Shown piece after piece: positions 12 to 36,915 of a stretch of 64,000 nucleotides of DNA (its first letter is position 1; each line of letters opens with the position of its first letter). The notes under the pieces were generated by a model that ran no database searches, was not told the DNA's origin, and worked only from the letters and a program-made list of their open reading frames with translations. The position numbers were made by a program, and so were the translations under genes. The stretch comes from Acrocarpospora macrocephala (GTDB taxonomy: Bacteria > Actinomycetota > Actinomycetes > Streptosporangiales > Streptosporangiaceae). The stretch is from NCBI RefSeq assembly GCF_009687865.1, contig NZ_BLAE01000004.1, positions 124,001-188,000 of the forward strand, in the 5' to 3' direction.

Positions 12-1736
12 TCAGTCGGACCAGTCGATGGCGTGGGCGAGGCGAGGTAAGGGCTCGAACTCCTTGATGGCGTCGAGGGAGCGGCCCATGGCCGCGTTGG
101 CCTCACGTTCGACCATGACCTCGACGAGGACGGGAAGCTGCTCCCGGGCGGACTCGACGCTCGCCCAGGCCAGGGCGCCTTCGAGATCACCGGGGGACTC
201 GACGCGGCGAGCCGGGCAGCCGAACGCCTCCATGACCTTGACGTGATCGATTCCGCCCTCGCCATAGTGCAGGTCGACGGCGAAGTTCATGTCATACGGA
301 ATCTCCGCCTGCCTGATCAGCCCCAGATACTCGTTATTGATCATCACGATCACAAACGGGATCCGGTACTGCGCGGCCACCGCGATCTCCTCCATCAGGA
401 ACTGGAAGGAGTAGTCGCCCACAACCGCCACGACCTCACGATCGGGGAAGGCGCACTTGACGCCCATCGCGGCCGGGATCTCCCAGCCGAGCGGCCCGGC
501 CTGACCGCAGACGAGGTAACGGCGCGGCAGGTAGGTGCGCTGGAACTGCCCCGACCAGATCTGGTAGAGCCCGATCGCGGTCACGAACGTGGTGTCGGGT
601 CCGTAGAACTCGTTGATCTCCCGGAACACCCGGGGCGGCTTGATCGGGACGTCGTCGAAGTCGTCGCGCCGCGCCATCGTGTCGCGCAGTTCCCCGACCC
701 GGCGCGCCCACCGGCCGGCCCGCTGCGGCTTGGTCCGGTGCCGCGCCTCGGCGGCCATCGCGGCGAGCGTCGGCTGGGCATGCCCGACCACCCCCAGATC
801 GGGCTCGAAGACACGCCCGATCTGGGTCGGCTCGATGTCCACGTGAATGAACGAGCGGCCCTTCCGATACACATCGAGGTCGCCGGTGTGCCGATCCCCG
901 AACCGCGCCCCCACGGCGAGCACCAGATCGCTCTCCAGGAACGCCGCGTTGCCCCACCGCGTCTGCGTCTGGATTCCCGCCATCCCCGCGAACAACGGGT
1001 GATCCTCGGGAAAGGCGCCTTTGCCCATCAGCGTGACCTGGACCGGCACCTGAAGATGCTCGGCGAGGGCCCGCAACTCGGCCGTCGCGTCAGCGATGAT
1101 CACTCCGCCCCCGGCCAGGATCAGCGGCCGCTCGGCTCGGGCGAGCATGTCCACCGCCGCGCGCACGGCCGAAGGCGTCGGTTCCGGCACGTCCACCGGG
1201 AACGGCGCGTCCAGTTCGGGATCGTAGAGGCAGGTGCCCCGCTGGACGTCGACCGGCAGATCGATGAGCACCGGGCCCGGCCGTCCGGAGCGGGCGATCC
1301 GGAACGCCTCCCGGAACACCCACGGCGCCTGAGCGGGCTCCTTGAGCTGGACGGCCCACTTCGTCACGGGCCTGGCGATCTCCACGATGTCGACCGCCTG
1401 GAAGGACTCCTGATGGAGTTTGGCGCGCTCGGCCTGCCCGGTGACGCAGATCATCGGGATCGAGTCGGCGAGCGCCGTGTAGAGCCCGGTGATCATGTTG
1501 GTCCCGGCGGGCCCGGAGGTCCCGATACAGACCCCGACGTTTCCGGTCACCCGCGACCAGCCGTCGGCGGCGTGCGTCCCGCCCTCCTCGTGGCGCACCG
1601 TGATGTGCCGGATCGAGCTGTGCTGGAGGGCGGCGTAGAGCGGGAGTATCGCCGCGCCCGGGATGCCGAAGACGGTGTCGACGCCCTCGGACTCCAGGAC
1701 CGCGACCACGGCCTCCATGCATGGAATCCGCTTCAT
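12..1736 (-). CDS. gcl: Glyoxylate carboligase-like ThDP enzyme
   Basis: 574 aa, ThDP-dependent decarboxylase superfamily. The predicted reaction joins two glyoxylates into tartronate semialdehyde with loss of CO2. Resemblance to E. coli Gcl runs the full length: FGIPGAAI near residue 24, GTSGPAGTNMITGLY near 73, FQAVDI near 112, SGRPGPVLIDLPVDVQ near 149, DIEPTQIGRV near 298 and CGQAGPLGWEIPAAMG near 410. One key residue differs. After RH at 48-49 the protein has Glu50, where E. coli Gcl has the unusual Val51; other ThDP enzymes carry Glu there. It is the last gene of the sucCD-hyi-reductase operon, and its start overlaps the reductase stop as ATGA. An acetolactate synthase-type activity cannot be excluded, but the neighbours favour glyoxylate. 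Confidence 0.85.
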   Translation of the reverse strand: MKRIPCMEAVVAVLESEGVDTVFGIPGAAILPLYAALQHSSIRHITVRHEEGGTHAADGWSRVTGNVGVCIGTSGPAGTNMITGLYTALADSIPMICVTGQAERAKLHQESFQAVDIVEIARPVTKWAVQLKEPAQAPWVFREAFRIARSGRPGPVLIDLPVDVQRGTCLYDPELDAPFPVDVPEPTPSAVRAAVDMLARAERPLILAGGGVIIADATAELRALAEHLQVPVQVTLMGKGAFPEDHPLFAGMAGIQTQTRWGNAAFLESDLVLAVGARFGDRHTGDLDVYRKGRSFIHVDIEPTQIGRVFEPDLGVVGHAQPTLAAMAAEARHRTKPQRAGRWARRVGELRDTMARRDDFDDVPIKPPRVFREINEFYGPDTTFVTAIGLYQIWSGQFQRTYLPRRYLVCGQAGPLGWEIPAAMGVKCAFPDREVVAVVGDYSFQFLMEEIAVAAQYRIPFVIVMINNEYLGLIRQAEIPYDMNFAVDLHYGEGGIDHVKVMEAFGCPARRVESPGDLEGALAWASVESAREQLPVLVEVMVEREANAAMGRSLDAIKEFEPLPRLAHAIDWSD

Positions 1737-2602
1737 GCGTTGATCCTTTCGATGACCTTGAGCAGCGCCGAGTGGTCGAGCGAGCCGTGGCCCTGGGCGC
1801 GGGCGGCGGCGATGAGCTGGGCCACGACTCCGGTGAGCGGCAGCGCCACGCCGGCCTCCCGGGCGGCGGCGATGATGATGCCCATGTCCTTGTCGTGCAG
1901 GTCGATCCGGAAGCCGGGGGCGAACTCCCGTTTGATCATGGAGTGCCGCTTGAGTTCGAGGATGCGGGACCCGGCGAGCCCGCCCGCGAGCACGTCGAGG
2001 CCGGCCGCCGGGTCCACCCCCGACGCCTCAAGAAGCACGATCGCCTCGGCGACCAGCCCGTAGATCCCGCCGACGACGAGCTGGTTGGCGGCCTTCACGG
2101 TCTGGCCCGCCCCGGACGGGCCCACGTGCACGATCGTCGTGCCGAGCACCCCGAGCACCTCGCGGGCGGATTCGACGTCCTCGGCCCGCCCGCCGACCAT
2201 GATCGAGAGCGTGCCGTCGACGGCTCCGCGCTCGCCGCCGCTCACGGGGGCGTCGATCGCCCTGATGCCCTTGACCGTCGCGGCCTGGGCCACCCGCCGG
2301 GAGGTCTCCGGCCGGATCGTGCTCATGTCGATGTGCAGCAGCCCGGGCGCGCCGTACTCCAGCAGCCCGGCGCTGCCGAAGACGACCTCCTCGACCTGCG
2401 GCGAGTCGGGCAGCATGGTGATCACGATGTGCGCCTGCGCGACCGCCTCGGCCAGGCTGCCCGCCGCCTTCCCGCCGTGACTGACGAGCTCGTCGAGCCG
2501 CTGCTCGCTCACGTCGTAGCCGACGACGGTGTGACCCGCTCTGACCAGGTTCGCGGCCATGGGGGTCCCCATGATCCCGAGCCCGATGAATCCGATGTTC
2601 AT
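1733..2602 (-). CDS. glxR: 2-hydroxy-3-oxopropionate (tartronate semialdehyde) reductase
   Basis: 289 aa beta-hydroxyacid dehydrogenase. It should reduce tartronate semialdehyde to D-glycerate with NAD(P)H, the step after carboligase. An N-terminal Rossmann motif GFIGLGIMGTPMAANL (4-19), the family motif DAPVSGGERGA near 117 and the catalytic lysine in GAGQTVKAANQ near 165-175 are all visible. Length is normal for GarR/GlxR. It is translationally coupled on both sides: its ATG overlaps the hyi stop and its TGA overlaps the gcl start. A 3-hydroxyisobutyrate dehydrogenase role is possible by sequence alone but unlikely between hyi and gcl. Confidence 0.9.
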   Translation of the reverse strand: MNIGFIGLGIMGTPMAANLVRAGHTVVGYDVSEQRLDELVSHGGKAAGSLAEAVAQAHIVITMLPDSPQVEEVVFGSAGLLEYGAPGLLHIDMSTIRPETSRRVAQAATVKGIRAIDAPVSGGERGAVDGTLSIMVGGRAEDVESAREVLGVLGTTIVHVGPSGAGQTVKAANQLVVGGIYGLVAEAIVLLEASGVDPAAGLDVLAGGLAGSRILELKRHSMIKREFAPGFRIDLHDKDMGIIIAAAREAGVALPLTGVVAQLIAAARAQGHGSLDHSALLKVIERINA

Positions 2603-3435
2603 CCGTTCCTCCAGGCGAAACTGTCGGCACTCGGGCCGGTGGGCCGGTACTCAAGACCGACATGACCCCGGTAGCCCGCCGAGACCAGCCGCTCAAAAAT
2701 CTCCTGGTACGGCATGCCGCCCGACCCCGGCTGACCACGCCCCGGATCGTCGGCGACCTGCACGTGCCCGAAGCGCGAGACGCTCTCGTCGATCAACGCG
2801 AGCACGTCCTCCCCCATCCGGTGCAGGTGGTAGAGGTCGGCCAGGAACGCCACGTTGGGCACGCCGACCTCGTCGATCACCGCGAACGCCGCGGCCGAGG
2901 AGGTGATCGGATAGCGCGGGTTCTCATGCGAGTTGAGCGCCTCCACGACCACCACCGCGTCGATCCCGGCCGCGGCTTCGGCCGCGAGCAGCAGGTTGCC
3001 CAGCGCGACCTCCCGCTGCGCCTCTACCGGCACATCGGCGGCACGGTTGCCGTAGAGCGCGTTCAGCACCCGGCAGCCCAGCGACTCGGCCAGTCCCGCC
3101 GCCACCTCCACGTTGGCCCGGAACCGGTCCGTCGTGCGCGGGTCGGACAACAATCCGCGCTCGCCCGCGGCCATGTCGCCGGCGTCGAAGTTGAGCCCGA
3201 CCAGCCGCACTCCCGCGTCGCCGATCGCCCGCCGCAACCGGTCGAGCTCCAGATCCGCCGGCACCGGCCCGTCGAACGGCCACCACAACTCGATCGCGTC
3301 GAACCCCGCTTTCGCCGCCGCCTCCGGCCGCTCCAGCAAGGGCAACTCGGTGAACAGGATCGACAGATTGACATCGAACGCGAACCCTCCGTCTCCCCCG
3401 GCGAACGGCACCTTCCCCCTCCCACTGAGCGTCAC
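2599..3435 (-). CDS. hyi: Hydroxypyruvate isomerase
   Basis: 278 aa from a GTG start at 3435, preceded by a good GGAGGG Shine-Dalgarno in GTGGAGGGCTC. An in-frame start 20 codons upstream is less likely. It is a TIM-barrel sugar isomerase matching E. coli Hyi: N-terminal VNLSILFTELPLLERPEAA, AGDMAAGERGL, FLADLYHLHRMGED, GHVQVADDPGRGQPG and VGLEYRP. It interconverts hydroxypyruvate and tartronate semialdehyde, so it sits beside gcl and glxR in glyoxylate use. The start forms a GTGA overlap with the small repeat ORF upstream, and the stop forms an ATGA overlap with glxR. Confidence 0.9.
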   Translation of the reverse strand: MTLSGRGKVPFAGGDGGFAFDVNLSILFTELPLLERPEAAAKAGFDAIELWWPFDGPVPADLELDRLRRAIGDAGVRLVGLNFDAGDMAAGERGLLSDPRTTDRFRANVEVAAGLAESLGCRVLNALYGNRAADVPVEAQREVALGNLLLAAEAAAGIDAVVVVEALNSHENPRYPITSSAAAFAVIDEVGVPNVAFLADLYHLHRMGEDVLALIDESVSRFGHVQVADDPGRGQPGSGGMPYQEIFERLVSAGYRGHVGLEYRPTGPSADSFAWRNG

Positions 3436-3812
3436 GAGCCCTCCACCAGAGTCCGCACCATGCCGTCCACTCCAACACCGTCCGCCCCAACCCACGGGCC
3501 CTTCCCGCTTCGGCGCGAGGTGACAAGCGCTCCAACCGGGGCCGCGCCACTCCCGCCGCCCCGGCCAACAGCCCTCCGCCCGCTTCGGCGCAAGCCCGCT
3601 ACGGCTGAGATCGCGTCCACACCACCCACCCCCACGAACGAGTTCCTCCCGCTTCGGCCCGAGGTGACGAGCGCTCCAACCAGAGCCGCGTCACTACCGC
3701 CACCCCGGCCAACAGCCCTCCACCCGCTTCGGCGCAAGAGCGCCACGGCTGAGATCGCGTCCACACCGCCCACACCCACGAACGGGCTTCTCCTGATTCG
3801 GCGCGAAATCAT
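3432..3812 (-). CDS. Small internally duplicated ORF nested between sucD and hyi
   Basis: 126 aa, no recognised family. The protein is Gly/Ala/Arg/Val-rich and contains two near-identical 48-residue units built around [27 protein letters not shown] and VGALVTS. Two things favour real translation. Its ATG overlaps the sucD stop (ATGA) with GGAGAGCTC just upstream, and its TGA overlaps the GTG start of hyi. Every other junction in this operon except sucC-sucD (12 nt apart) is coupled in the same way. Against it, third-position GC looks lower than in the neighbours and the sequence may simply be a repeat that stayed open. Function is unknown. Confidence 0.45.
3505..3792. repeat. Two tandem copies of a 144-bp repeat
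   Basis: The first copy covers about 3505-3648 and the second about 3649-3792. Both carry CCGCTTCGGC, GCGCTCCAACC, CCCCGGCCAACAGCCCTCC, GGCTGAGATCGCGTCCACAC and CCCACGAACG in the same order, with scattered substitutions. Part of a third unit follows (TTCGGCGCGAA). The unit length is a multiple of three, so the minus-strand frame stays open through it. Confidence 0.85.
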
Positions 3813-4681
3813 GAGCTCTCCAGCAGGGATCGCATGAGGCGGGCGGTTTCGCTAGGGGTCTTGCCGACGCGGACGCCGACCTTCTCCAGGGCTTCCTTCT
3901 TGGCCTGGGCGGTTCCGGCCGAGCCGGAGACGATCGCGCCCGCGTGGCCCATAGTCTTGCCCTCCGGGGCGGTGAAGCCCGCCACGTAGGCCACGACCGG
4001 CTTGGAGACGTGCTGCTCGATGTAGGCGGCGGCGCGTTCCTCGGCGTCGCCCCCGATCTCGCCGATCATCACGATGGCGTCGGTGCCCGGGTCCTCCTGG
4101 AAGGCCTGGAGCGCGTCGATGTGGGTGGTCCCGATCACCGGGTCGCCCCCGATGCCCACGGCGGTGGAGAAGCCGAAGTCGCGCAGCTCGTACATGAGCT
4201 GGTAGGTCAGCGTGCCGGACTTGGAAACCAGGCCGATGCGACCGGGCGTGGTGATGTCGGCCGGGATGATCCCGGCGTTCGAGAAGCCCGGGGTGATGAG
4301 CCCGGGACAGTTCGGGCCGATGATCCTGGTCCGGCCGGAAGCGCGGGCCCGGGCGAGGAAGGTCAGCGTGTCATGCACGGGCACGCCCTCGGTGATGACC
4401 ACGCAGAGCCCGATGCCCGCGTCGACCGCCTCAAGCACCGCGCCCTTGGCGAACCTGGGCGGCACGAAGACCACCGAGACGTCCGCGCCCGTCGCCTCCA
4501 TCGCCTCGCCCACGCCGGAGAACACCGGGATGCCCTGATGGGTGGAGCCGCCCTTGCCCGGGGTGACCCCGGCCACCACGGTGGTCCCGGCGGCCACCAT
4601 GCGGGTCGTGTGCCGGGTTCCCTCGGCGCCGGTCATGCCCTGAACGAGCACTCTGCTGTCTTTGGTCAGGAAGATCGCCAT
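3809..4681 (-). CDS. sucD: Succinyl-CoA synthetase alpha-like acyl-CoA ligase subunit
   Basis: 290 aa, full length for SucD. CoA-binding Rossmann domain with [14 protein letters not shown] near 15-28, a ligase domain with GPNCPGLI near 124-131, and the phosphohistidine motif GKTMGHAGA near 243-251. With the beta subunit it would form an acyl-CoA from a carboxylic acid, CoA and NTP. Because it lies in a glyoxylate/oxalate operon under a shared operator, the substrate is probably not only succinate. Oxalate (giving oxalyl-CoA) or malate are candidates; this is inference. It starts 12 nt after the sucC stop. Confidence 0.85.
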
Positions 4682-4693
4682 CTTTACCGCTCC

Positions 4694-5845
4694 TCACGCA
4701 GCCGAACGGGTCAGCCGGGCCGCCTCTTCGGCGGCGCCGTCCATGGTCGGGACCTGCCGGACGGAGGGATGCGCGGCCCGGCTCAGAATCAGCCGGCCGG
4801 CCTCCGCGTTGTTGCCGTCCAGCCGGACGACGATCGGGTGCCCGTGGCCGCGTTCCCCCAGCGAGTCCAGCGCGGCGACGATCCCGTCCGCGACCGCGTC
4901 ACAGGCGGTGATCCCGCCGAACACGTTGACCAGGACCGACTTCACGTCCGGGTCGGACAGGATGATCCCCAGCCCATCGGCCATGATCTGGGCGGACGCC
5001 CCGCCGCCGATGTCCAGGAAGTTCGCGGGCCGGGCACCCGCCTGGGCGACGACGTCGAGCGTGCTCATGACCAGCCCGGCGCCGTTCCCGATCACTCCGA
5101 CCTCGCCGTCGAGCTTCACGTAGTTGAGCCCTTTGGCCTTGGCCCGGCTCTCGAGGTCGTCACCGTGGCCGGGATCGGCATCCCCGGCCGGATGGCGGAA
5201 GGAGGCGTTCTCGTCGAGGGTGACCTTGCCGTCAAGGGCGATCACGCGGCCGTCGGCCGTGCGGGCCAGGGGGTTGACCTCGACGAGAACCGCGTCCTCC
5301 TCGACCATGACCCGCCAGAGCCGGACCAGGACATCGGCGATTTCCGCGTGGATCTCCTCCGGTAGCTGGGCCCGCTCGGCGATCAGCCGCGCCGTCCGCT
5401 GATCGACTCCGGTCAGCGGGTCGATCGGCAGCCGCACCAAGGCTTCCGGGCTGGTGGCCGCGACCTCCTCGATGTCCATGCCGCCCTGGGCGGAGGCCAT
5501 CGCGAGGAACGCGCCGTTGGCACGGTCGACGAGGAACGCCGCGTAATACTCCTCCACGAGCACGGTGGCCGGTTCGACCAGCACGCTATGGGCGATATGC
5601 CCCTTAATGTCCATCCCGAGGATCGCGCGCGCCTCCTCTTCGGCCGTAGCCGGGCCCGGCGCGACCTTGATGCCGCCCGCCTTACCCCGCCCCCCGACCT
5701 TGACCTGCGCCTTCACGACCACCGGCATCGCCAGCTCGGTGGCGATGGCACCCGCCTCCGCCGGCGTGGTCGCCACCGCACCCCCGGGGATCGGGACTCC
5801 GTGCCGGGCGAACAGCTCCTTCGCCTGATGCTCGTACAGATCCAT
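4694..5845 (-). CDS. sucC: Succinyl-CoA synthetase beta-like acyl-CoA ligase subunit
   Basis: 383 aa from ATG at 5845 ([18 protein letters not shown]), preceded by GAGGAGGGCTCT. In-frame codons further upstream are not part of the protein. ATP-grasp domain with [15 protein letters not shown] near 44-58, metal/nucleotide segment VEVNPLA near 206 and C-terminal flavodoxin-like ligase domain with FLDIGGGAS and NVFGGIT. It is the first gene of the operon running down to gcl. The 18-bp palindrome at 5870-5887 lies 25 nt upstream of the start, so expression is probably controlled with oxalate use. Confidence 0.88.
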
Positions 5846-5869: not shown

Positions 5870-5887
5870 TAGACGGTATACCGTATG
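5870..5887. promoter_or_regulatory. GntR-type operator copy 1 (sucC promoter)
   Basis: TAGACGGTATACCGTATG. It fits the palindromic consensus CATACNGTATRCNGTATG that recurs at six places in the locus. It lies just upstream of sucC in the sucC/MFS divergent region. Confidence 0.75.
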
Positions 5888-5936
5888 GCATGTGCCTCGT
5901 CCAGCCCTGGACAGGGAACTGGTACCTGGGATATGC

Positions 5937-5954
5937 CATACAGTATGCAGAATG
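5937..5954. promoter_or_regulatory. GntR-type operator copy 2 (MFS permease start)
   Basis: CATACAGTATGCAGAATG. It matches the locus consensus closely and overlaps the likely ATG of the permease at 5945. A possible promoter has TGGACA at 5908-5913 and TATGCC at 5932-5937, which would place transcription start at or next to that ATG. Confidence 0.75.
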
Positions 5955-7822
5955 CAATCGAGGTCCGCGACTGGCGGGGCAGGACCTACCTCGTCGGCCC
6001 CTCCGCCACCGAACTGCTCAGCCGTCCCCGCACGTGGATGTTGTGGTCGGCCTGCGCGGCCATGGCGGCCATCGCCCCCATGCAGTACGGCTACGCCGCC
6101 ATCTCCCCGCAACTCGCCACGGCCCAGGGGTTACCCCTGGCGAGCACGCTCATCCCGCTCGCCGTCTGGCTGGCCTGCCAGGCGATCACCGCCCTCGCCA
6201 CCGCGATCCTGCTCTCCCGCGGCCGGCTCCAAGCCCGCTCAGCGCTCCGCCTCGGCGCGCTCCTGTCCGGCGCGGCCCTGCTCACCGTCGCCGCCGTCGG
6301 CCACCCCCCGGCCCTCTCCGGCCTGCCCGTGCCCACCGCCCTCATCGTCGGATACGGCCTGCTCGGCGGCATCGGAGCGGGTTTGGTGTACGGCGCCTGC
6401 ACCCAGACGGTCGCCCGGTGGTACCCGGATCGCCCGGCCATCAGGGTCAGCGTCGTGACCGGCGCTTTCGCGTACGGGACGATTCCGCTGGCCGTGGCCG
6501 TCGGCCTCGACCATGACCTGCTCGGCCCGGCGTTCCTGGTGGCGTCGGGGGTGGCCGTGATCGTCGTCACGGCGGCGGCCTCGCTGCTGCGCACGCCGCC
6601 GTCATTGTGGTGGCCGCCGGAGGTCGATCCGCGCGCCTGGGCGCTGGACCGATCGGTCCTCCACCGGCAGCCCCGGGCGGCGCGGCAGTTCTCGCTCGGC
6701 GAAGCGGCCCGAACCCGGTGCCTGGCCGTGCTTGCGTTGATCCTGGTGGTCGCGGGGGCGATCGGGATCTTCAACGTGATCGCCATGGCGATCGCCCTGG
6801 ACGCCGTAGGCCCGATCATGGCCGCGTTCATCGCCCTGATGTTGCTGCTGAACGGTTCGGGACGGTCCGCCGCCGTCCTGCTCGCGGAAAGGTTCGGCCG
6901 ACCCCGGGTCCTGTCGCTGGTGCTCCTGTCACTGGGCGCGGGACAGGCACTGCTCGCCCTGGCTGGACTGGCCACGCGGACCGAAGCCCCACTCGGAGCC
7001 GAACTCGGGGCTCAGCTCGGAACTCAGGCCGGAGCCCAGATCGAAACCCAGGCCGGAGTCCAAGATGCGATCCAAACCGGAGTCGCGCATGCGGTCCAAG
7101 CTGGCGTCCCGCATGCGGTCCAAGCTGGAGTCGCGGATGCGATCCAAGCCGACGTCCCGCATGCGGTCCAAGCCGGAGTCGCGGATGCGATCCAAGCCGG
7201 AGTCCCGCATGCACTCCAAGCCGACGTCCCGCATGCGGTCCAAGCCGGAGTCGCGGATGCGATCCAAGCCGGAGTCCCGCATGCACTCCAAGCCGACGTC
7301 CCGCATGCGGTCCAAGCCGGAGTCGCGGATGCGATCCAAGCCGACGTCCCGCATGCACTCCAAGCCGGCGTCCCGCATGCGGTCCAAGCCGGAGTCGGGG
7401 ATGCGGTCCAAGCCGGAGTCCAGGCCGCGATCCAGATCGAGGGTGCCGGAGCCCATGCGGGGGTCCATGCCGCAGTCCAGGTTGGAGCTGAGATGGGAGC
7501 AGCGGGTGCCGGGCTCGGTGCGGGGCTGCTGGCCCTGGCGGGGGTGATCCTCGCCGGGATCGGAAGCGGGGCGTGTTATCCGCTGATCGCGTCATTGGTC
7601 CGGGAATATTTCGGCGATGAACGCATGTCGGGCATTCATGGTGTGGTCTACTCCGCCAAGGCCGTCGCGGGATCCGTTGGGGTGGGTCTCGCGATCTGGG
7701 GATCGATGGACATCGTGGCGGCGTTCCTCGCCGCGGCCGCTCTGTCGATCGTCGCAGTGGGGCTGTGCGGGCTGTTACGCAGGCCCGGATTGCCCGCGAC
7801 CCTCCCCATCAGAGTGCTGTGA
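5945..7822 (+). CDS. OxlT-like MFS permease with extracellular octapeptide-repeat insertion
   Basis: About 625 aa from ATG 5945; ATGs at 5885 and 5933 are alternatives. It is a 12-TM major facilitator of the oxalate:formate antiporter type, predicted to bring in oxalate. The TM8 segment has LLNGSGR and TM11 has [10 protein letters not shown]. The arginine and lysine there are where OxlT has its two oxalate-binding charges (family knowledge, my alignment). Between predicted TM9 ([15 protein letters not shown]) and TM10 ([17 protein letters not shown]) sits about 170 residues of low-complexity sequence, including about 16 octads such as VPHAVQAG and VADAIQAD. Without it the protein would be about 455 aa, a normal length. 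By MFS topology this loop faces outside. Confidence 0.82.
7058..7441 (+). repeat. 24-bp tandem repeat encoding about 16 octapeptides
   Basis: Sixteen in-frame 24-bp units with two main types encoding VPHA(V/L)QA(G/D) and VADAIQA(G/D). They are preceded by degenerate units rich in GAQ and TQAG. The array stays open in several frames on both strands, so it gives long spurious ORFs. Confidence 0.95.
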
Positions 7823-7947: not shown

Positions 7948-8679
7948 ATGCTCGCGAACCAGGGAGCCACTGCGAAGATCGCCCGGCCCACGACGCTCAG
8001 GGAAAGTGTGTTCGAAGCGATTCTTGAGTTGATCATCGTCGGGAATCTGGAACCCGGCCAGCATCTGGTCGAGAACGAGCTGGCCGACATCCTCGGGGTC
8101 TCACGCCAGCCCGTGCGCGAGGCGCTCCAGCTGCTCAGCGGGGAAGGGTGGGTGGATCTGCGTCCCGGCCACGGCGCGTTCGTGCACGCGCCGACCGTCG
8201 CGGAGGCCGACCAACTGCTGGCGGTGCGCACCCTGCTGGAGACCGAGTCCGCCCGCCTGGCCGCGCGCAACTCGGACGAACCGGGAGTGGCACACCTGCG
8301 CATGTTGTGCGCCCGTGGCCTGGCCGCGTTCGAAGCCGACGATGTGGACGGCTCGGTGGCCGCCAACTCCGACCTGCACGCCGCGGTGACCTCACTGTCC
8401 GGCAACCAGGTCCTCGCCGAGCTGACCTCGCAGGTCGCCCGGCGGGTGCGGTGGTATCACACGCCGGTCGCCCGGCAGCGTGGACGGGCGTCCTGGGACG
8501 AGCACACCGCGCTGATCGACGCGATCGCGGACGGCGACGAGGACCAGGCCGCCGAGATCATGCGCCGGCACACCGAGCACACCCGGCATTCCTACCTGGA
8601 GCAGCGGGCCAGCCAGGGCGAGGAAAGCGTGTCCGCACCGGTCCGGCGTCGCCGGCCGCGTGCAGCCGCCACAAGTTGA
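7948..8679 (+). CDS. GntR family transcriptional regulator, FadR/FCD type
   Basis: 243 aa. N-terminal winged helix: LRESVFEAIL near 18, LEPGQHLVENELADILGVSR near 34-53 and QPVREALQLL near 54-63. An all-helical FCD ligand-binding domain follows, with candidate metal/ligand residues Asp and His in NSDLHAAVTS, DEHTALIDAI and MRRHTEHTRHSY. It sits between the permease and the decarboxylase operon and is the only regulator in the locus, so it is the best candidate to bind the six 18-bp palindromes. The ligand is unknown; oxalate, glyoxylate or an oxalyl-CoA-pathway intermediate would fit. Confidence 0.9.
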   Translation: MLANQGATAKIARPTTLRESVFEAILELIIVGNLEPGQHLVENELADILGVSRQPVREALQLLSGEGWVDLRPGHGAFVHAPTVAEADQLLAVRTLLETESARLAARNSDEPGVAHLRMLCARGLAAFEADDVDGSVAANSDLHAAVTSLSGNQVLAELTSQVARRVRWYHTPVARQRGRASWDEHTALIDAIADGDEDQAAEIMRRHTEHTRHSYLEQRASQGEESVSAPVRRRRPRAAATS

Positions 8680-8962: not shown

Positions 8963-9930
8963 TCCGAGCACCATCAAGCGAGCACCATCGAGCGAACCCA
9001 TCAACCGACCATCTAGCACCAAACACCCACAACCGAGCACCAGAACCGAGCACGTAGAACCGAGCACCCAAATCCAGACACCAGATCTAAACACCCAGAT
9101 CTGACCACCAGGGGCAGAGCCGGACCAATGCCCGCCGCGGCCTCCGCGAGCGTCCCCCACCGGCTCCCCCAAGCGAATCCCTCCAGGCCCGGATCCGTCA
9201 GTAGCCCGGCACAGGGCACCCGGCCGCCAAGGGACTTCGACTCCAAGACCAGCCGGACCTCACCGTCAAATCGACGCCGAGGTCCAACAGAACGAGCAGT
9301 TCACCGACTTGCTCTCCGCTATCCGGCGCCGATCACGCCGGTGACGGTTCTCACCACACCAGCGCCAAGAGTGGCGACGGCATCTTGTTGGAATCCTTAG
9401 CACTCCTGGAAGTCCATCAGGCGCTGCTTGGAATTCCTGGCACCCCTGGAACTCCACCGAGGCACTGCTTGGAATTCTTGGCGCTCCTGAATCACCGCCG
9501 AGGCGCTGCTGTGGGCACTCTGATTCGCTGATGACCTCTTGGCGTTCCAGGAGATCTTGACGTAGTGACCCTTCGCGTTCCCGGAAGCGCCTTTGGGAAC
9601 GCGACTCGGTATCCGCGAAGCTATTGAAATGCGATCCTGGCGACCCCGCCAAGCCCTTTGGAAAGGCGAAATTGGCACCCCCGAAGCTTAGAAGGCGACC
9701 TTGGCCGTTGAAAAGGCGACCTTGGCACCCGTGAAGCTTAGAAAGGCGACCATGACGGCTCACCAAGCTTTGTTCGGACGGTGACCCCTTGGCTTGGAAG
9801 GCAACCACGACACCCCGGAGGGCGCTTTGGGAAAGGCTAGGCGATCCCAATTTGTGAGATGGGGGTCTTTTGCGTGGGCTTTGTTGAATGACTGGATTGT
9901 GAAGCGGAAAGGGTTGGCGGGCGGTCCGGG
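8963..9930. other. Gene-poor stretch of degenerate short repeats
   Basis: No gene can be supported. About 8963-9115 is built from variants of CCGAGCACCA and AACCGAGCAC. About 9385-9500 has imperfect units of roughly 46 bp with GCTTGGAATTCCTGG, CTGGAACTCCACCGAGG and close variants. About 9670-9760 repeats GAAGCTTAGAAAGGCGACC. These look like decayed minisatellites lying between convergent transcription units. Confidence 0.6.
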
Positions 9931-9950: not shown

Positions 9951-10094
9951 GGTGGATGCGGGTTCAGGAGAGTAGGTGGATGCGGGTTCAGGAGAGTAGG
10001 TGGATGCGGGTTCAGGAGAGTAGGTGGATGCGGGTTCAGGAGAGTAGGTGGATGCGGGTTCAGGAGAGTAGGTGGGTGGAGGGTTTCAGGAGAG
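9951..10094. repeat. 24-bp minisatellite, five exact copies plus one degenerate
   Basis: The unit GGTGGATGCGGGTTCAGGAG followed by AGTA is repeated exactly at 9951-10070, five times. A diverged sixth unit covers 10071-10094. There are no spacers, so it is not CRISPR. It ends 45 nt before the terC stop codon. Confidence 0.95.
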
Positions 10095-10138: not shown

Positions 10139-11128
10139 TTAGTTGTCGACTTCCGCGGGTTCGCGTTGGATTTGGGCGGCCGCGCGGCGAGTGTCGGAGC
10201 GGGATTTGATGAGGCTGGCGATCGTGGTCAGGACCAGAGTGCCGATGATGACGCCCAGGGAGACCAGGATCGGGACTTCGGGCGCCCAGGAGACGCCGTC
10301 GTGGTGCAGGGCTTCCAGGATGAGCTTGACGCCGATGAAGGCGAGCACGATCGACAGGCCCTTGCTGAGGTAGATCAGGCGGTCCAGCAGGCCACCGATC
10401 AGGAAGAACAGCTGGCGCAGACCCATCAGCGCGAACACGTTGGCCGTGAACACCAGATACGGCTCCCGGGTCAATCCGAAGATCGCCGGAATCGAGTCCA
10501 GGGCGAACAGCAGGTCCGTCGTCCCGATGGCCACCATGACGATGAGCATCGGCGTGACCAGCCGGCGGCCGGCGACCTGAACGGTGAGTCGCGCCCCGTG
10601 GTAGACGTCGGTGGCGGGCAGCACCCGCCGTACCGCACGGATCGCGATGTTCTCCGAGAACTCGGCTTCCTCCTCCTCATGTCCGATGAGCTTCCACGCC
10701 GTATAGACCAGGAACGCGCCGAACACATAGAACAACCAGTCGAACCTGGCCACGGCCTCGGCTCCGGCCGCGATGAACAGACCGCGCATCAACAGCGCGA
10801 TCACGATGCCGACCAGCAGCACCTTCTGCCGGTACAGCCGGGGCACCGAGAACCGGCTCATGATCAGAAGGAAGACGAACAGGTTGTCCATGCTGAGCGA
10901 ATACTCGGTAATCCATCCGGCGAAGAACTCGCCGCCTCGGGCGGGCCCGGCCACGAGCAGCAACCCGCCGCCGAACGCCGCCGCGAGCGCCACGTAGAAG
11001 AGCACCCACCACGTGCATTCGCGGAAGGACGGCTCGCGCGGGTTGCGCGCGACCAGATAGAAGTCGAAGGCCAGTACCAGGGCGAAGACGCCGATCGTGG
11101 TGAGCCACACCCAGATGGGCAGGTTCAT
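10139..11128 (-). CDS. TerC family integral membrane protein
   Basis: 329 aa with eight or so predicted membrane segments. The two TerC signatures are present: EYSLSMDNLFVFLLI near 75-89 and DLLFALDSIPAIFGLT near 207-222. Family members act in metal (notably Mn) export or loading of exported metalloproteins, or are linked to tellurite resistance. It is the last gene of the decarboxylase/transferase operon; its ATG overlaps the stop of the 189-aa membrane protein. Its link to oxalate may be through metal-oxalate chemistry, which is inference. Confidence 0.88.
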   Translation of the reverse strand: MNLPIWVWLTTIGVFALVLAFDFYLVARNPREPSFRECTWWVLFYVALAAAFGGGLLLVAGPARGGEFFAGWITEYSLSMDNLFVFLLIMSRFSVPRLYRQKVLLVGIVIALLMRGLFIAAGAEAVARFDWLFYVFGAFLVYTAWKLIGHEEEEAEFSENIAIRAVRRVLPATDVYHGARLTVQVAGRRLVTPMLIVMVAIGTTDLLFALDSIPAIFGLTREPYLVFTANVFALMGLRQLFFLIGGLLDRLIYLSKGLSIVLAFIGVKLILEALHHDGVSWAPEVPILVSLGVIIGTLVLTTIASLIKSRSDTRRAAAQIQREPAEVDN

Positions 11129-11694
11129 CGAGCTCCTTTCTTCGTCTTGGCCCGCCGCCGGTCACGGGCGCGCGACAACGTTTCGGCGTGCTCGACATAC
11201 CGCCGCAGCAGCAGGGCCGCCTCGGGGTTGTGGTCGGTCAAGCGCATCAGCCACTGCGGCATGAAGCGCTCGTGCAGCCAGAGGAACCCGATGGCGAAGC
11301 CGAGACTGACCATGGCCTGGTAGGCGAGGAAGCCGCCCAGACCGCCGGACAGGAACACCTCCCCGTGCAGGACGAGACCCGCGGCCGTCTCCTGGAACAG
11401 CCGGGACAGCGGGAAGGCGATGAGCCAGAAGACCCCGGCCGGGGCGAAGACGCCGGGCCGGAACAGGCCGCTGACCCTGCCGCCGAGGAGGCGGGGGCCG
11501 AGCAGCGTGCCGTACGCCCCGCCGAACAGGCCGAGCGGCAGGGCCAGGGCGAGCGCCGAGACGGCGGCCCAGCCGGTGGACTGCCCCGCGAGGAGGGTCA
11601 GCCCACCGGCCATGGCGCCGGCGACGACTCCGATCGACAGCCCCGGGATCGCGAGCTCCGCGTAGTGTCGTCCGAATGATCGTCCAGGCGCCAT
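11125..11694 (-). CDS. Uncharacterised membrane protein
   Basis: 189 aa with about four hydrophobic segments (for example LSIGVVAGAMAGGLTLLAG and ALALALPLGLFGGAYG) and a strongly basic C-terminus ending RRRAKTKKGAR. No family recognised. It starts one base after the Nramp-like gene and overlaps terC by 4 nt, so the three are co-translated. A role in the same transport process as its neighbours is likely, but its nature is not visible. Confidence 0.75.
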   Translation of the reverse strand: MAPGRSFGRHYAELAIPGLSIGVVAGAMAGGLTLLAGQSTGWAAVSALALALPLGLFGGAYGTLLGPRLLGGRVSGLFRPGVFAPAGVFWLIAFPLSRLFQETAAGLVLHGEVFLSGGLGGFLAYQAMVSLGFAIGFLWLHERFMPQWLMRLTDHNPEAALLLRRYVEHAETLSRARDRRRAKTKKGAR

Positions 11695-11695
11695 G

Positions 11696-13192
11696 TCAGC
11701 CCACTACCACGCCGAACGCGAACAGGCTGTAGAGCAGCATGCCGAGATAGAACACCGCGCCGAAGCCGATGATCACGTTCGTCCAGATCTTGGGCCGGAT
11801 GGGTTTGGGCAGCATCCGGTTGTTCACCAGCAGAAGTGTGACGCAGTAGGCGCCCATCGCGAACGTTGACAGGAACGCCAGCGTGTCGAGGATGCCACTG
11901 GGCCCGTCCGCGGGACCGAACAGCAGGATGAGGATGCCGAAGGCGATGACGCCCCACAGGAACGCGGCGTAGAGGTGCGACATGCGCAGCCGCTTGGCGC
12001 CGCGGACGAAGTGGTAGGTCATGTCGGCCTGACCGCGCGAGAACGAGTCGAACAGGCCGAGGGTGGCGTTCAGCCCGATCAGCGCGATGAAGCCGAGGAA
12101 GACCCCGCCCAGGATGGAGCTGCCCGCCGAGGCGAAGGAGTCGGCCATCGCGGTGAGCGCGGCTCCCCGCTCACCGTTCTCGATCACGTCCTTGACCCCG
12201 GGGGTGTTCCTGGCCGCGGCCTGGGCGATCACGGTGAACGAGATCGTCACCAGCATCGTGATGCCCCAGAAGAGCAGCAGCGCGTCAAAGGTGACCCAGC
12301 GCCGCCAGCCCCTCCACTTGCGCATCTCCTCCGGGTTCTCGGTGTCGAACATGAAGCCGCGCGACGGCATGGCCTCTTCTTCGCCGGCGTGCCGGAGACC
12401 GCGGATCTGCGGGATGTGCGCGCCCATACCGGCGCCGGAGTCGCGCAGATGCAGCGTGTACCACATCTGCTGCATGCCCGAGGGACCGGCGAAGGCGATG
12501 GAGCCCACGATGACGGGGAACCAGGCCGCCGACATGGCTTCCGACGGCAGGTAGCCGAAGGAGAACATGCCGGTGATGGTGTTCACCACGTCACTCCAGG
12601 TGCCGACCATGGCCGCCACGACCGCGGTGCTCACCACGAGCGTGCCGATCAGGACCGACAGCACGCTCTCCAGGAAGCTGTAGATCACTTTGGCCAGGCT
12701 GAAAACAACCCCGACCAGGAGTAATCCGACCACGGCCGTGACCGTCCATGGAATTCCTGTTATCTCTTCGAACGCCGCCGCGCCCGCCGACAGGTGGCCT
12801 GGCCAGATGTAGACCAGGATGGCGGCGACGAAGAAGAACCACATCAGTGGCTTGAAGACCCGGGCGGCGCCGAAGAAGATGCTCTCTCCGGTGGCCATCG
12901 CATACCGCGCCATCTCCAGCATGACGACGGCCTGGAGGGTGACGCCGATCAGGAACAGCCATCTGATCTCCGGCCCGAAGAGCAGGACCAGCCGGGGCCA
13001 CATGTAGGACTCGCCCATGCCCACGCCGAGCGCGACGAGGAACACGGTGGGCCCGAGGATGTGCACCGACGGGGGCGCGTCGGGCAGCGTGCGGATGGGC
13101 ATCGGCTCCAGTTTGCCCGCCCGCCATACTCGTTCTTCTTGATCCGCTGGGGCAGCCGTGTGCTCGGTCGCCGGTGTTCTTGACGTGTCCAC
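11696..13192 (-). CDS. Nramp-related membrane transporter lacking the canonical metal-site motifs
   Basis: 498 aa, about 11 membrane segments, general Nramp (SLC11-like) layout. In true Nramps TM1 carries DPGN and TM6 carries MPH, which bind the metal. Here the TM1 region reads ALGVGMGESYMWPR (54-67) and the TM6 region reads SIAFAGPSGMQQMW, so both motifs are absent. A charged loop of about 50 residues follows (AEEEAM-like and DTENPEEMRKWRGWRRW). It lies in the oxalate operon, 82 nt after the ADP-forming synthetase. Mn/Fe import is doubtful; transport of another solute, or of a metal chelate, is possible. Confidence 0.7.
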   Translation of the reverse strand: MDTSRTPATEHTAAPADQEERVWRAGKLEPMPIRTLPDAPPSVHILGPTVFLVALGVGMGESYMWPRLVLLFGPEIRWLFLIGVTLQAVVMLEMARYAMATGESIFFGAARVFKPLMWFFFVAAILVYIWPGHLSAGAAAFEEITGIPWTVTAVVGLLLVGVVFSLAKVIYSFLESVLSVLIGTLVVSTAVVAAMVGTWSDVVNTITGMFSFGYLPSEAMSAAWFPVIVGSIAFAGPSGMQQMWYTLHLRDSGAGMGAHIPQIRGLRHAGEEEAMPSRGFMFDTENPEEMRKWRGWRRWVTFDALLLFWGITMLVTISFTVIAQAAARNTPGVKDVIENGERGAALTAMADSFASAGSSILGGVFLGFIALIGLNATLGLFDSFSRGQADMTYHFVRGAKRLRMSHLYAAFLWGVIAFGILILLFGPADGPSGILDTLAFLSTFAMGAYCVTLLLVNNRMLPKPIRPKIWTNVIIGFGAVFYLGMLLYSLFAFGVVVG

Positions 13193-13274: not shown

Positions 13275-15410
13275 TCAGCCGCTCAGCAGGCCGGCCGCGC
13301 GGGCCCAGCGATACTTCGCGCCGAGCACCGCCACCGGTCGCTCCGTGGTGTACGGATAGGCGATGACGCCGTGGTCGAAGAGGTATTCGCACGCCTCCTC
13401 GACTTCGACGTCACCGGCCAGCGACGCCACCACCGGCTTGTCGTTGCCCTTGGCCCGTTCCTCGGCCACGACCTTGGAGACCAGCTCGGCGAAGACCATC
13501 GGCGGGGTGACGATGGTGTGCCAGTAGCCGAGCACCAGGGCGTGGATCCGGGGATCGGTCAAGCCGAGCCTGAGGGTGTTCTCGTATGTGCTGGGCGGCT
13601 CGCCGCCCGTGATGTCGATCGGGTTGCCCGCCGCTCCGAACGGCGGGATGTAGGCCCGGAACGCCTCGTCCAGGTCGGGCGGGATCTCCATCAAGGTGAG
13701 CCCGTTGTCCACGCACGCGTCGGAGAGCAGCACGCCGGACCCGCCGGCGCCGGTGATGATGACGACGTTCTCGCCCTTCGGCGTGGGCATGAGCGGCAGC
13801 GACCTGGCGTATTCCAGCATCTCGTTCAGCCCGGGGGCGCGGACCACGCCCGCCTGCCGCAGGATGTCGTCGTAGACCTTGTCGTCGCCGGCCAGCGCGC
13901 CGGTGTGGGATCCGGCGGCACGGGCGCCCATGGCGGTCCGCCCGGCCTTCAGCACGATCACCGGTTTGGTCTTCACCATCCGGCGCGCGGCCTCCACGAA
14001 GCCGCGCCCGTCCTTGAGATCCTCCAGGTGCATGGCCACGAGGCGGGTGTTGTCGTCCTGCTCGAAGAAGGTGAGCAGATCGTCCTCGTCCACGTCGGCC
14101 TTGTTGCCGACGCCGACGATCGCCGACACGCCCATCCGGGTGCTCCGGCTGAAGCCGAGGATGGCCATTCCGATGCCGCCGCTCTGCGACGTCAGCGCCA
14201 CGCTGCCGCGCACGTCATACGGCGTGCAGAAGGTCGCGCACAGGTTTTCCGGAGTGTAGTAGTACCCGTAGATGTTGGGGCCCAGCATGCGGACACCGTG
14301 CCGCCGGGCGATCTCCACGATCTCCTGCTGGCCTTCGACGTTGCCGGTCTCGGCGAACCCGGACGGGATCATGATGGCTCCGGCCACGCCCTTGACGCCC
14401 GCGTCCTCCAGCGCCCCGGCCACGAACTGGGCGGGGATGGCGAACACGGCCACGTCCACCTCGCCGGGCACGGCCGCCATGTTCGGATAGGCCGGTAACC
14501 CCAGGATCTCGGTGGCTTTCGGGTTGATCGGATAGATCCGGCCCTGGTAGCCGCCGTTGATGAGGTTCCGCATCACCGAGTTGCCGATCTTCCCGGTCTC
14601 CGCGGAGGCGCCGATGACGGCCACCGCGCGCGGTTTGAAGATGCGTTTCATCGAGGCGAGGATCTCCTCCCGCGACAGCCGGACCGGCTCTACGGCGGGT
14701 TCGGCGGCGAGCAGGATGCGCACGTCGGCGGCGACCGCGCCGTTCGCCGAGGCGAAGACGGGGTTGAGGTCGACTTCGGCGATCTCGGGGTGGTCGGCGA
14801 CGAGGGCGCCGACGCGCTCGATCATGCCCGCGAGCGCCTCGCGGTCGGCCGGCTCGGCCCCCCGCGCACCCCGCAGCACTTCCGCCGCTCTGATGTCATC
14901 GAGCATCCCGAGTGCATCATCGCCTGAAAGCGGGGCAAGCCGGAAGGTCACATCCTTCAGGACCTCGACCAGGACGCCGCCCAGGCCGAAAGCCACCACC
15001 TTGCCGAACGTCGGGTCGGTCACCGCGCCGATGATCACTTCGTAGCCGCCGCCGACCATCTGCTGGACCTGCACGCCGTCAATGGCGGCGTTCGGGTCGT
15101 ACGCGTGCGCGGCGGCCATGATCTGGTCGTAGCCGGATCGGACCGCGTCGGGGGTGGCCAGGCCAACGAGCACGCCGCCGGCCTCGGTCTTGTGCAGGAT
15201 GTCCGGGGAGACGATCTTCAACACGACCGGGAAGCCGATCTCGGCGGCCAGCGCGACGGCCTCGTCGGCCGAGGTGGCCAGTCCCTCGCCGGGGGTGGCG
15301 ATCCCGTACGCGTCGCAGATGCGTTTGCCCTCGGGAGCGGTCAACGCGAGCCGGCCCTCGGCCCTGGCCTTCTCCAGGATCTCTCCGACCTCATTCGACA
15401 TCTCAGACAA
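13275..15410 (-). CDS. ADP-forming acyl-CoA synthetase, permuted single chain
   Basis: 711 aa. The N-terminal third (about 10-235) is an ATP-grasp domain with [34 protein letters not shown]-like and EVDLNPVF motifs. CoA-binding ([14 protein letters not shown] near 264-277) and succinyl-CoA-ligase-like domains follow, with the phosphohistidine motif GSHTGALAG (His502). This is the beta-then-alpha order. The usual GPNCxG is GPNIYGYYY at 377-385, so the Cys next to the CoA site is missing. It overlaps frc by 8 nt. Possible roles are making oxalyl-CoA with ATP, or recovering ATP from formyl-CoA; neither is shown by sequence. Confidence 0.82.
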
Positions 15411-16629
15411 CTCCGTCTCTCTTCAGCTGGGCCAGCTCGTCGGCGGTGACGCCGAGCCCGGCGTAGATCTCCTGGTTGTGCTCGCCGAGCAGGGGCGGCG
15501 TGGTCACCTCGACCGGGGAGTCGGAGAGGTGGAGCGGGCTGCCGACGGTGACGAAGGAGCCGCGCTCGGGGTGATCGACGGTGATCACCGCGCCTTCTTC
15601 GCGCAGCGATTCGTCCTCGACCAGTTCGCGGGTCGACAGGATCGGGCCGCACGGGATGTTCTCCGCGTTCAGCCGGTCCAGCACCGCCCACTTGTCGTGC
15701 TGGATACTCCATTCCTCGATGAGCTGGAACATCTTGTCGAGCTTGGGCAGCCGGGCCTCCGGCGTGGCCCACTCGGGGTCCTCGGCCAGCTCGGGGCGGC
15801 CGATGATCGCCGACAGCGGGCGCCAGCCGACGGGTTGCACGATCACGTAGATGTAGTCGTTCGGCCCGCCGGGGGCGCAGCGCACCGCCCAGCCCGGCTG
15901 GCCGCCGCCGGAGGCGTTGCCCGACCGGGGGACCTCATTGCCGAACAGCTCGTTCGGATACTCCCGGAGCGGGCCGTGCGCCAGCCGCTGCTGGTCGCGC
16001 AGCTTGACCCGGCACAGGTTGAGCACGGCGTGCTGCATGGCGACCTGGACCCGCTGGCCCCGGCCGGTCTGGCCGCGCTGGTAGAGGGCGGCCAGGATGC
16101 CGGCCACGGCGTGCACGCCGGTGCCGGAGTCGCCGATCTGGGCGGCGGTGGCCAGCGGCGGGCCGTCTTCGAAGCCGGTGGTGGACATCGAGCCGCCCAT
16201 CGCCTGGGCGATCACCTCATATGCCTTGAAGTCGGCATACCGCCCCGGGCCGAAGCCCTTGATCGACGCGTACACCAGGCGGGGGTTGAGTTCCTGCAGC
16301 CGCTCCCAGGTGAAGCCCATCCGGTCGACGGCTCCGGGGCCGAAGTTCTCGACCAGGATGTCGGCCTCCTTGACCAGGCCGGTGAACAGCTCCTTGCCGC
16401 GCGCGCTCTTCATGTTGAGCGTGATGCTGCGCTTGTTGCAGTTGAGCATCGTGAAGTAGAGGCTGTCCACGCCGGGCAGGTCACGCAGCTGCTGCCGGGT
16501 GATGTCGCCGGTGGGCGCCTCCAGCTTGACGACGTCGGCGCCGAGCCAGCCGAGCAGCTGGGTGCAGGACGGGCCGGACTGCACGTGGGTCATGTCGAGG
16601 ACGCGGACGCCCTCCAGGGCCTTTCCCAT
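15403..16629 (-). CDS. frc: Formyl-CoA:oxalate CoA-transferase
   Basis: 408 aa class III CoA-transferase, close to Oxalobacter Frc and E. coli YfdW over the whole length. Visible landmarks are VQSGPSCTQ (16-24), [29 protein letters not shown], the catalytic Asp167 in [23 protein letters not shown] near 204-216 and the glycine loop [11 protein letters not shown]. It moves CoA from formyl-CoA to oxalate, making oxalyl-CoA for the decarboxylase encoded just upstream. It starts 12 nt after the oxc stop. Confidence 0.95.
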
Positions 16630-36329: not shown

Positions 36330-36915
36330 GCCAGGATGGCGAGCCCTCGCACTCCCGACCATCTCCAGCTCCGGGCAGGATGGCACGCCTTCGCACCTCC
36401 CGACCATCTTTCCGCCCGCCGAGCGGCGAGCCGTCAACACCTCACGACCAACTTTCCGCCCGCGGAGTGGCGAGCCGTCAACACCTCACGAGCATGTTTC
36501 CGCCCGCCGAGTGGCAAGCCGTCAGCGCCTCGCGGCCATGATTCCGCCCGCAGGATGGCGAGCGCCTCCCGACCAACTTTTCCGCCCGCGGAGTGGCGAG
36601 CCGTCAACACCTCACGAGCATGTTTCCGCCCGCGGAGTGGCGTGCCGTGAACACCTCGCGAGCATGTTTCCGCCCGCCGAGTGGCAAGCCGTCAGCGCCT
36701 CGCGACCATGATTCCGCCCGCAGGATGGCGAGCGCCTCCCGACCAACTTTTTCGCCCGCGGAGTGGCGAGCCGTGAACACCTCGCGAGCATGTTTCTGCT
36801 CGCCGAGTGGCAAGCCGTCAGCGTCTCGCGGCCATCTTTCCGCCCGCAGGATGGCGAGTCGTCAGCGCCTCGCAGCCGTCTTTCGACCGCAAAGGCAAGC
36901 TGTCAGCGTCCATCT
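36330..36915. repeat. 44-bp minisatellite with a 170-bp higher-order unit
   Basis: About 13 units with core TTTCCGCCCGCSGAGTGGCR followed by AGCCGTCARCRCCTCRCGASCAWG. Most are 44 bp; some are 38-bp forms beginning ATTCCGCCCGCAGGATGGCG. A block of one 38-bp and three 44-bp units is itself repeated with a period of 170 bp (36541 and 36711). The units are adjacent, without spacers. The array lies between the YtxH-like gene and the convergent 156-aa gene. Confidence 0.92.

Follow-up and report, generated by a model that had tools for sequence, protein, structure and literature searches.

The permease gene and its neighbours

The window, that is, the whole stretch of 64,000 nucleotides of Acrocarpospora macrocephala DNA that was analysed, carries a gene for an OxlT-like permease of the major facilitator superfamily (MFS), in a loop of which a tandem array of octapeptides is encoded. 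The permease and the neighbouring genes considered here are the following:

12-1736, minus strand: glyoxylate carboligase
1733-2602, minus strand: 2-hydroxy-3-oxopropionate reductase
2599-3435, minus strand: hydroxypyruvate isomerase-like (287.7 bits, below the cut-off of 353.45)
3809-4681, minus strand: succinate-CoA ligase alpha-type subunit
4694-5845, minus strand: succinate-CoA ligase beta-type subunit
5945-7822, plus strand: OxlT-like MFS permease, about 625 amino acids from ATG 5945
7948-8679, plus strand: GntR/FCD regulator, with a relative near the permease in 61/80 loci
10139-11128, minus strand: TerC/Alx family metal homeostasis protein
11696-13192, minus strand: Nramp family divalent metal transporter (NCBIfam match; no Pfam match at E 0.001)
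15403-16629, minus strand: formyl-CoA transferase (TIGR03253, 659.7 bits, cut-off 504.2)
16642-18342, minus strand: TPP enzyme (oxalyl-CoA decarboxylase model TIGR03254, 241.6 bits, below the cut-off of 739.4)

The permease frame is stop-free from ATG 5885 to 7822, ATG 5885 and ATG 5933 being alternative in-frame starts upstream, and residues are numbered here from ATG 5945. The AlphaFold2 model of the permease (65 aligned sequences, mean pLDDT 83.5, pTM 0.77) reads as 12 transmembrane (TM) helices, as counted from its helix list, with the array between TM9 and TM10, where an earlier note on this DNA had placed it. OxlT (PDB 8HPK, 8HPJ) is the best fold match of this model (E 5.8e-10, TM-score 0.77 by target length) and the only match of the permease among solved sequences at E 0.01 or better (E 0.0028), although the identity amounts to 15-16% and the scores lie below the cut-offs of the oxalate/formate antiporter (OFA) family models TIGR00890 (72.4, cut-off 374.85) and TIGR04259 (52.6, cut-off 335). 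The NCBIfam lactate-type model also stays below its cut-off (96.4 bits, cut-off 320), and Pfam MFS_1 exceeds its own (39 vs 33.4). Residues R307 and K572 align with R272 and K355 of OxlT and are invariant in all 65 rows of the alignment; the two OxlT residues are described as essential and conserved in the family in the accessible part of PMC10070484. The permease therefore has, in common with the OFA family, two conserved basic binding-site residues and a 12-TM MFS fold closest to OxlT. Besides, purifying selection acts on its flanks (dN/dS of 0.11-0.29 over four pairs, independently of the misplaced loop gap mentioned below), which indicates that the permease gene is in use. Both halves flanking the repeat are intact, as had been claimed, and conserved in relatives, the N-terminal half being 96% identical in A. 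pleiomorpha.

As regards the substrate, neighbours were counted near the permease in the best 80 of 124 loci, many of which end at contig ends or at the 6-kb flank, and relatives were found for GntR in 61, sucC in 57, sucD in 51, Nramp in 43, TerC in 39, and frc in 17. Since the gene neighbourhood is kept in many relatives, oxalate or glyoxylate use is a fair guess from the sequence, and the naming of an oxalate-type permease agrees with both the best fold match and the oxalate-type neighbourhood. Most likely, the permease still works as an OxlT-like carboxylate carrier, whose substrates are predicted from the neighbours to be oxalate, formate or glyoxylate-related. The acyl-CoA ligase-like protein encoded to the right of the permease falls below its model cut-offs. 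The TPP enzyme scores better as acetolactate synthase-like or 2-hydroxyacyl-CoA lyase-like, also below cut-off, and relatives of it, 78-87% identical, lie near the permease homologues of e.g. Kribbella, Umezawaea and Saccharothrix. The TerC-type and Nramp-type genes (10139-13192) sit inside the glyoxylate/oxalate cluster.

The octad array and its units

Within the permease gene, all on the plus strand, the array and its surroundings can be divided as follows:

5945-6979: TM1-TM9 half, including R307 (codon 6863-6865), the counterpart of OxlT R272
6980-7057: degenerate A/Q/G-rich stretch from TM9 to the array, found in A. pleiomorpha as well
7058-7081: degenerate first unit, VQDAIQTG, identical in 22/24 bases to the single close unit of A. 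pleiomorpha
7082-7417: fourteen octads, 24-bp units with a 72-bp higher-order repeat (TRF, in-frame reading)
7418-7489: degenerate A/Q/G-rich loop tail after the array, present in A. pleiomorpha too
7490-7819: TM10-TM12, including K572 (codon 7658-7660), the counterpart of OxlT K355

Tandem Repeats Finder (TRF) reports an array at 7048-7421 with a period of 24 (15.6 copies) and a second period of 72 (5.2 copies, 91% matches, score 566), the best score being 77 in 200 codon shuffles of the gene and 69 in 200 shuffles of the loop codons alone. Read in the permease frame, 7082-7417 gives 14 octads of the form V-[PAG]-[HD]-A-[VIL]-Q-A-[GD], in which V1, A4, Q6, and A7 are unchanged in 14/14 octads and position 3 is His or Asp in every unit. 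The longest exact direct repeat within the array measures 129 bp (7143-7271, shift 72), and the 72-bp triplets 7154-7225 and 7226-7297 are identical. The 24-bp units and the kept reading frame of the earlier note are thus recovered, and so is the repeat itself, but its count of about 16 octads has to be lowered to 14 clean units and one degenerate unit, since the A/Q/G-rich stretches at about 6986-7057 and 7418-7489 are degenerate. The other frames of both strands are also stop-free across the array, as expected of a 24-bp unit without stops, and the relatives were searched with the permease frame only.

The codons of the array bear on the way it arose. All 14 array glutamines are encoded by CAA, compared to 7/134 in 12 neighbouring genes and the permease ends, and all nine array histidines by CAT, compared to 19/103 in the same set; that such rare codons are common to the copies indicates that the units were copied as DNA. 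In addition, differences among the units are replacing as often as silent per site (pN 0.139, pS 0.153), which gives no sign of residue constraint in the array. Taken together with the identical 72-bp triplets, these data suggest that the array was made recently by DNA copying. Evenly spaced over 7082-7417 in one gene, the 14 CAA codons may act as a drag on translation. When considered as folded DNA, the 72-base triplet has z values of -2.56 and -1.80 on its two strands, with 4 and 9 of 200 shuffles equally good, an advantage over shuffles too weak for hairpin-driven slippage to be claimed.

The copy number could be thought to result from an assembly error, the true array being shorter or longer: the assembly is a draft of 166 contigs, the array contains the 129-bp exact repeat, and short-read assemblies can misjudge tandem copy number, as stated in the accessible part of PMC6868369. 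Such an error is nevertheless considered unlikely, the array being located inside a 298,862-bp contig, with its frame kept and its units differing by distinct substitutions, and the existence of several distinct unit types means that assembly alone does not make the array. Assembly or frameshift as the source of the array itself was discarded, the frame being open across the loop in the best 30 family loci and in 79 of the 80 loci described below.

The unit was also sought elsewhere. With at most two mismatches, its 20-base core occurs at 10 places of its own genome, nine in the array and one elsewhere (reversed control, three), and at one place in A. pleiomorpha, on a contig other than that of the permease (reversed control, two), while at the same threshold it was found at no permease locus of the four other Acrocarpospora genomes. 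A mobile or dispersed repeat was rejected. At the peptide level, and within the best 15 candidates per genome, octad matches at E 1e-4 or better are found in 21/297 family genomes including its own, none of them at a listed permease place beyond the window array; the best match elsewhere (E 2.4e-17, family genome G135) lies in three overlapping frames. A further match, at C45, falls in a different gene and looks like chance.

The TM9-TM10 loop in relatives

Four out of five Acrocarpospora genomes hold the permease gene, the fifth being without a match at E 1e-30. The N-terminus of OxlT is cytoplasmic, and given the same orientation a loop following an odd-numbered helix would face outside, so that the TM9-10 loop of the modelled permease is probably external. 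A low-complexity extension of this loop is found in all four Acrocarpospora permease genes, and the stretch between the TM8 end and TM10 counts 229 residues for the window permease, 113 for A. pleiomorpha, 72 for A. corrugata, and 137 for A. phusangensis. Measured from mid-helix to mid-helix, 10 of the 11 spans of the four genes agree within 2 residues, the TM9-10 spans being 212, 96, 55, and 120.

In A. pleiomorpha, there is one close 24-bp unit where the window has 14-15. It differs in 2/24 bases from the VADAIQAG units of the window as well as from the window's first unit, likewise has CAA, and is followed by a degenerate second unit identical in 20/24 bases to the window unit at 7418. This result comes from a unit-by-unit comparison of the loop DNA, a global alignment having misplaced the upstream part. 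In the dN/dS calculation, the aligner misplaced the gap between the window and A. pleiomorpha, so that the loop values of 0.50-0.65 over the four pairs are rough and probably inflated. The loops of A. corrugata and A. phusangensis are unrelated to the array, which is absent from the other three Acrocarpospora permease genes and belongs to the window species alone among the four. The array thereby has the properties by which a coding minisatellite is recognised, namely head-to-tail units of 10-200 bp in at least four copies (here 24 bp and 15.6 copies), an intact frame with a unit length that is a multiple of three, and a copy number that differs between close relatives, the comparison with A. 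pleiomorpha (14-15 vs 1) being one between species. Conversely, the array could be old and A. pleiomorpha could have lost most units, since tandem arrays contract as easily as they expand. Growth of the array in the window, as opposed to loss of units in A. pleiomorpha, is read from the absence of the unit in two other species, A. corrugata and A. phusangensis, and the near-identity of the copies suggests a recent spread; an old array is considered quite improbable.

The same comparison bears on the proposal that the repeat is a ligand-binding domain, whose regularly spaced His and Asp residues would serve, close to the mouth of the transporter, as ligands for divalent metal or calcium oxalate. 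A precedent exists in the prion protein, which has copper-binding octarepeats with one His per repeat, and the His or Asp at position 3 of each octad, the recurrence of TerC-type and Nramp-type genes in 39 and 43 of 80 loci and the frc gene in the window all fit such a role. While the ligand residues of a metal-binding octarepeat would be conserved in relatives, the insert contains 11 histidines in the window, two in A. pleiomorpha, none in A. corrugata, and two in A. phusangensis, and this lack of conservation in sister species weakens the metal-binding idea. The metal genes are also found beside insert-free permeases, e.g. in Herbidospora and Planotetraspora, and the full-length model has no confident fold in the repeat, with pLDDT <50 at residues 414-481. 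The claim of metal or calcium-oxalate binding is thus not supported, the His/Asp pattern being restricted to the window and the array being explained by the copying of one 24-bp unit; a binding domain is considered very improbable.

Beyond Acrocarpospora, the loop was surveyed in the best 80 of the 124 loci found; one of them, L106, was left out after a frame change, and the remaining 79 comprise 3 Acrocarpospora, 16 Nonomuraea (including [Actinomadura] parvosata), and 60 loci of other genera. Between the TM8 end and TM10 there are 45-50 residues in the 60 other-genera loci and 48-79 in the 16 Nonomuraea, the corresponding TM9-10 mid-helix spans being 28-33 and 31-62 (80 rows with Acrocarpospora). 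In the 60 other-genera loci, few spans are as constant as TM9-10, while some variation is seen in TM5-6 and TM7-8, and one TM2-3 inner span reaches 48 (L083); a further case is Streptosporangium subroseum (L042), with a TM7-8 span, outside by helix count, of 79 vs a median of 34 in the 60 loci. These variable spans imply that TM9-10 is not the sole tolerant place. Frames are intact in 79/80 of these loci and in the three other Acrocarpospora genes. A family match at E 1e-40 was obtained in 101/297 genomes, and neither the best 30 of these 101, in which the loop was read, nor the best 80 of 124 loci showed a frameshift at the loop, the finding that the earlier note had named as its own refutation. 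The L106 locus of Pseudonocardia sp. CNS-139 (735-2041) has its frame change near query residue 235, between TM6 and TM7 and hence before the loop, and this may be a sequencing error or a broken gene. In a quick tree, with SH-aLRT support only and six long end branches flagged, Acrocarpospora joins Herbidospora, which has a short loop, apart from Nonomuraea, and five changes between long (52 or more) and short loops are counted.

The TM9-10 loop of Nonomuraea contains its own short tandem units, as seen in N. antri and N. thailandensis, and the TM3-4 span of this genus ranges from 28 to 58. Short tandem peptide repeats also occur in TM3-4 of Nonomuraea sp. SYSU D8015 (L080) and N. solani (L105). 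The TM3-4 and TM9-10 loops are related by MFS pseudo-symmetry, and their lengths in Nonomuraea are uncorrelated (Spearman 0.13, p 0.63, 16 rows). A speculative and unlikely proposal is that TM9-10 and the symmetric TM3-4 form an evolvable length dial in the oxalate-type carrier of Acrocarpospora and Nonomuraea, in which in-frame slippage would tune gating, wall passage or surface exposure, as a counterpart of the variable surface repeats of adhesins.

The loop could instead be a structural element selected for its length, such as a wall spacer, a helical hairpin or a docking arm, the sequence of which would be immaterial. The four Acrocarpospora regions, at 72 to 229 residues, do exceed the 45-50 of the other genera and the 48-79 of Nonomuraea, and the helical hairpin of the QacA transporter, as described in the accessible part of PMC10425836, is a precedent for a loop that matters. 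However, within a single genus the span ranges from 55 to 212 residues, which argues against a tight length requirement, and little sequence is shared beyond the pair formed by the window and A. pleiomorpha. Structure predictions point both ways: TM9 runs on as a helix to residue 385 in the permease model and the isolated repeat is predicted as one continuous helix (pLDDT 84), but with a pTM of 0.34 and a mean pLDDT that varies from 53.9 to 83.9 over five models. Because the octads repeatedly contain Pro or Gly and the five models are at odds, this long helix is not trusted and a defined repeat fold was not retained, although the pLDDT of 84 may mean that the repeat is not mere disorder. Coiled coils have 3.5 to 3.67 residues per turn, to which a period of eight residues is unfit. 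A length-dependent role of the loop is possible, but the element as a whole is held to be rather unlikely.

Origin and meaning of the array

Our preferred reading, to which a probability of roughly 80% is given, is that the array is a recent, lineage-specific coding minisatellite in a permissive outer loop and not a conserved functional domain. In this scenario, one 24-bp unit of the low-complexity TM9-10 extension would have been multiplied to 14-15 copies in the lineage of the window, by slippage or unequal recombination, first in 24-bp steps with few substitutions and then by copying of 72-bp triplets; the end state is what is seen, and the order of steps is the one it suggests. The survival of the array would be explained by a unit length divisible by three, by the lack of an in-frame stop and by the small, uncharged to mildly acidic residues that it adds to an outer loop away from the transport path, the position of the loop being taken from the model and its tolerance from the variation in length. 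Most likely, the repeat has no dedicated job beyond that of a flexible loop. The constancy of V1, A4, Q6, and A7 counts against this reading, yet recent copying alone gives it; the finding of a long loop in each of the four Acrocarpospora genes also speaks against neutrality and could mean that its length is of use. A match of Cornifin (SPRR, PF02389) to residues 368-480 (24.3 bits, E 3.9e-5) stays below the Pfam cut-off of 34.8 and was interpreted as reflecting a composition similar to that of another repeat protein.

The statement that no MFS protein has such a loop was too strong in view of the inserts of SV2 and QacA, and holds insofar as neither is an octad array. SV2 carries its repeat domain in the TM7-8 loop. 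This synaptic vesicle protein resembles the window permease in being a putative transporter with 12 TM helices and a domain that is built of repeats and faces the vesicle lumen (PMC8145042, accessible part), but it is eukaryotic and the domain is a pentapeptide beta-helix, the two being set apart here by description rather than by sequence or fold. The EL7 helical hairpin of QacA is likewise an inserted external element of a bacterial MFS protein, conserved in a subset of DHA2 transporters; it differs in being short (residues 443-465 in the deletion), in lying between TM13 and TM14, and in being needed for efflux, according to the accessible part of PMC10425836. Unlike the window permease, OxlT has no long TM9-10 insert, as its solved chains comprise about 390 residues. 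Among the papers listed by literature searches, none deals with an octad array in an MFS or OxlT-like loop, which is no proof of absence. Prokaryotic coding satellites and external inserts in 12- or 14-TM transporters are thus known, and it is the octad minisatellite in an OxlT-like loop that was not met.

The four Acrocarpospora species offer a natural experiment, in which the same permease keeps 10 of 11 spans within two residues and lets one vary from 55 to 212, this span having been lengthened in one of the four by an octad array derived from a unit that remains single-copy in a sister species. TM9-10, together with TM3-4 in Nonomuraea, is thereby marked as an insertion-tolerant place of MFS proteins, useful for tagging. 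A caution also follows for low-complexity inserts of other membrane proteins, which are readable without assuming a function.

Prokaryotic coding satellites and minisatellites are a described class of in-frame tandem units of 10-200 bp encoding amino-acid repeats, reported in Actinobacteria among others, with e.g. 38 satellites in Streptomyces coelicolor; the array has the same kind of in-frame unit, and an MFS external loop is unmentioned as a site in the accessible part of that report (PMC6749651). In a scan of stop-free frames rather than annotated genes, minisatellites prove common in the own genome, where 34 arrays score at least 150 over 800 kb taken from outside the window, and the period is a multiple of three in 18 of the 25 arrays listed. 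Per 100 kb and at the same score, this gives 4.25 for the own genome and 7.81 for the window, with 0.50 and 3.00 for the control family genomes G102 and G142 (200 kb each), and 2.14 for A. corrugata (140 kb), 0 for A. phusangensis (39 kb), and 8.52 for A. pleiomorpha (35 kb), samples so small and uneven that no exceptional status is claimed for this genome. Near the permease, further arrays lie outside called genes at 3503-3806 (144 bp), 9388-9510 (41 bp), and 9951-10094 (24 bp), and the arrays near the A. pleiomorpha permease differ from those of the window in unit length or copy number. Finally, the array at 36394-36891, across which no single frame is open, consists of about 11 copies of a 44-bp unit and shows additional periods of 126 and 170 bp.
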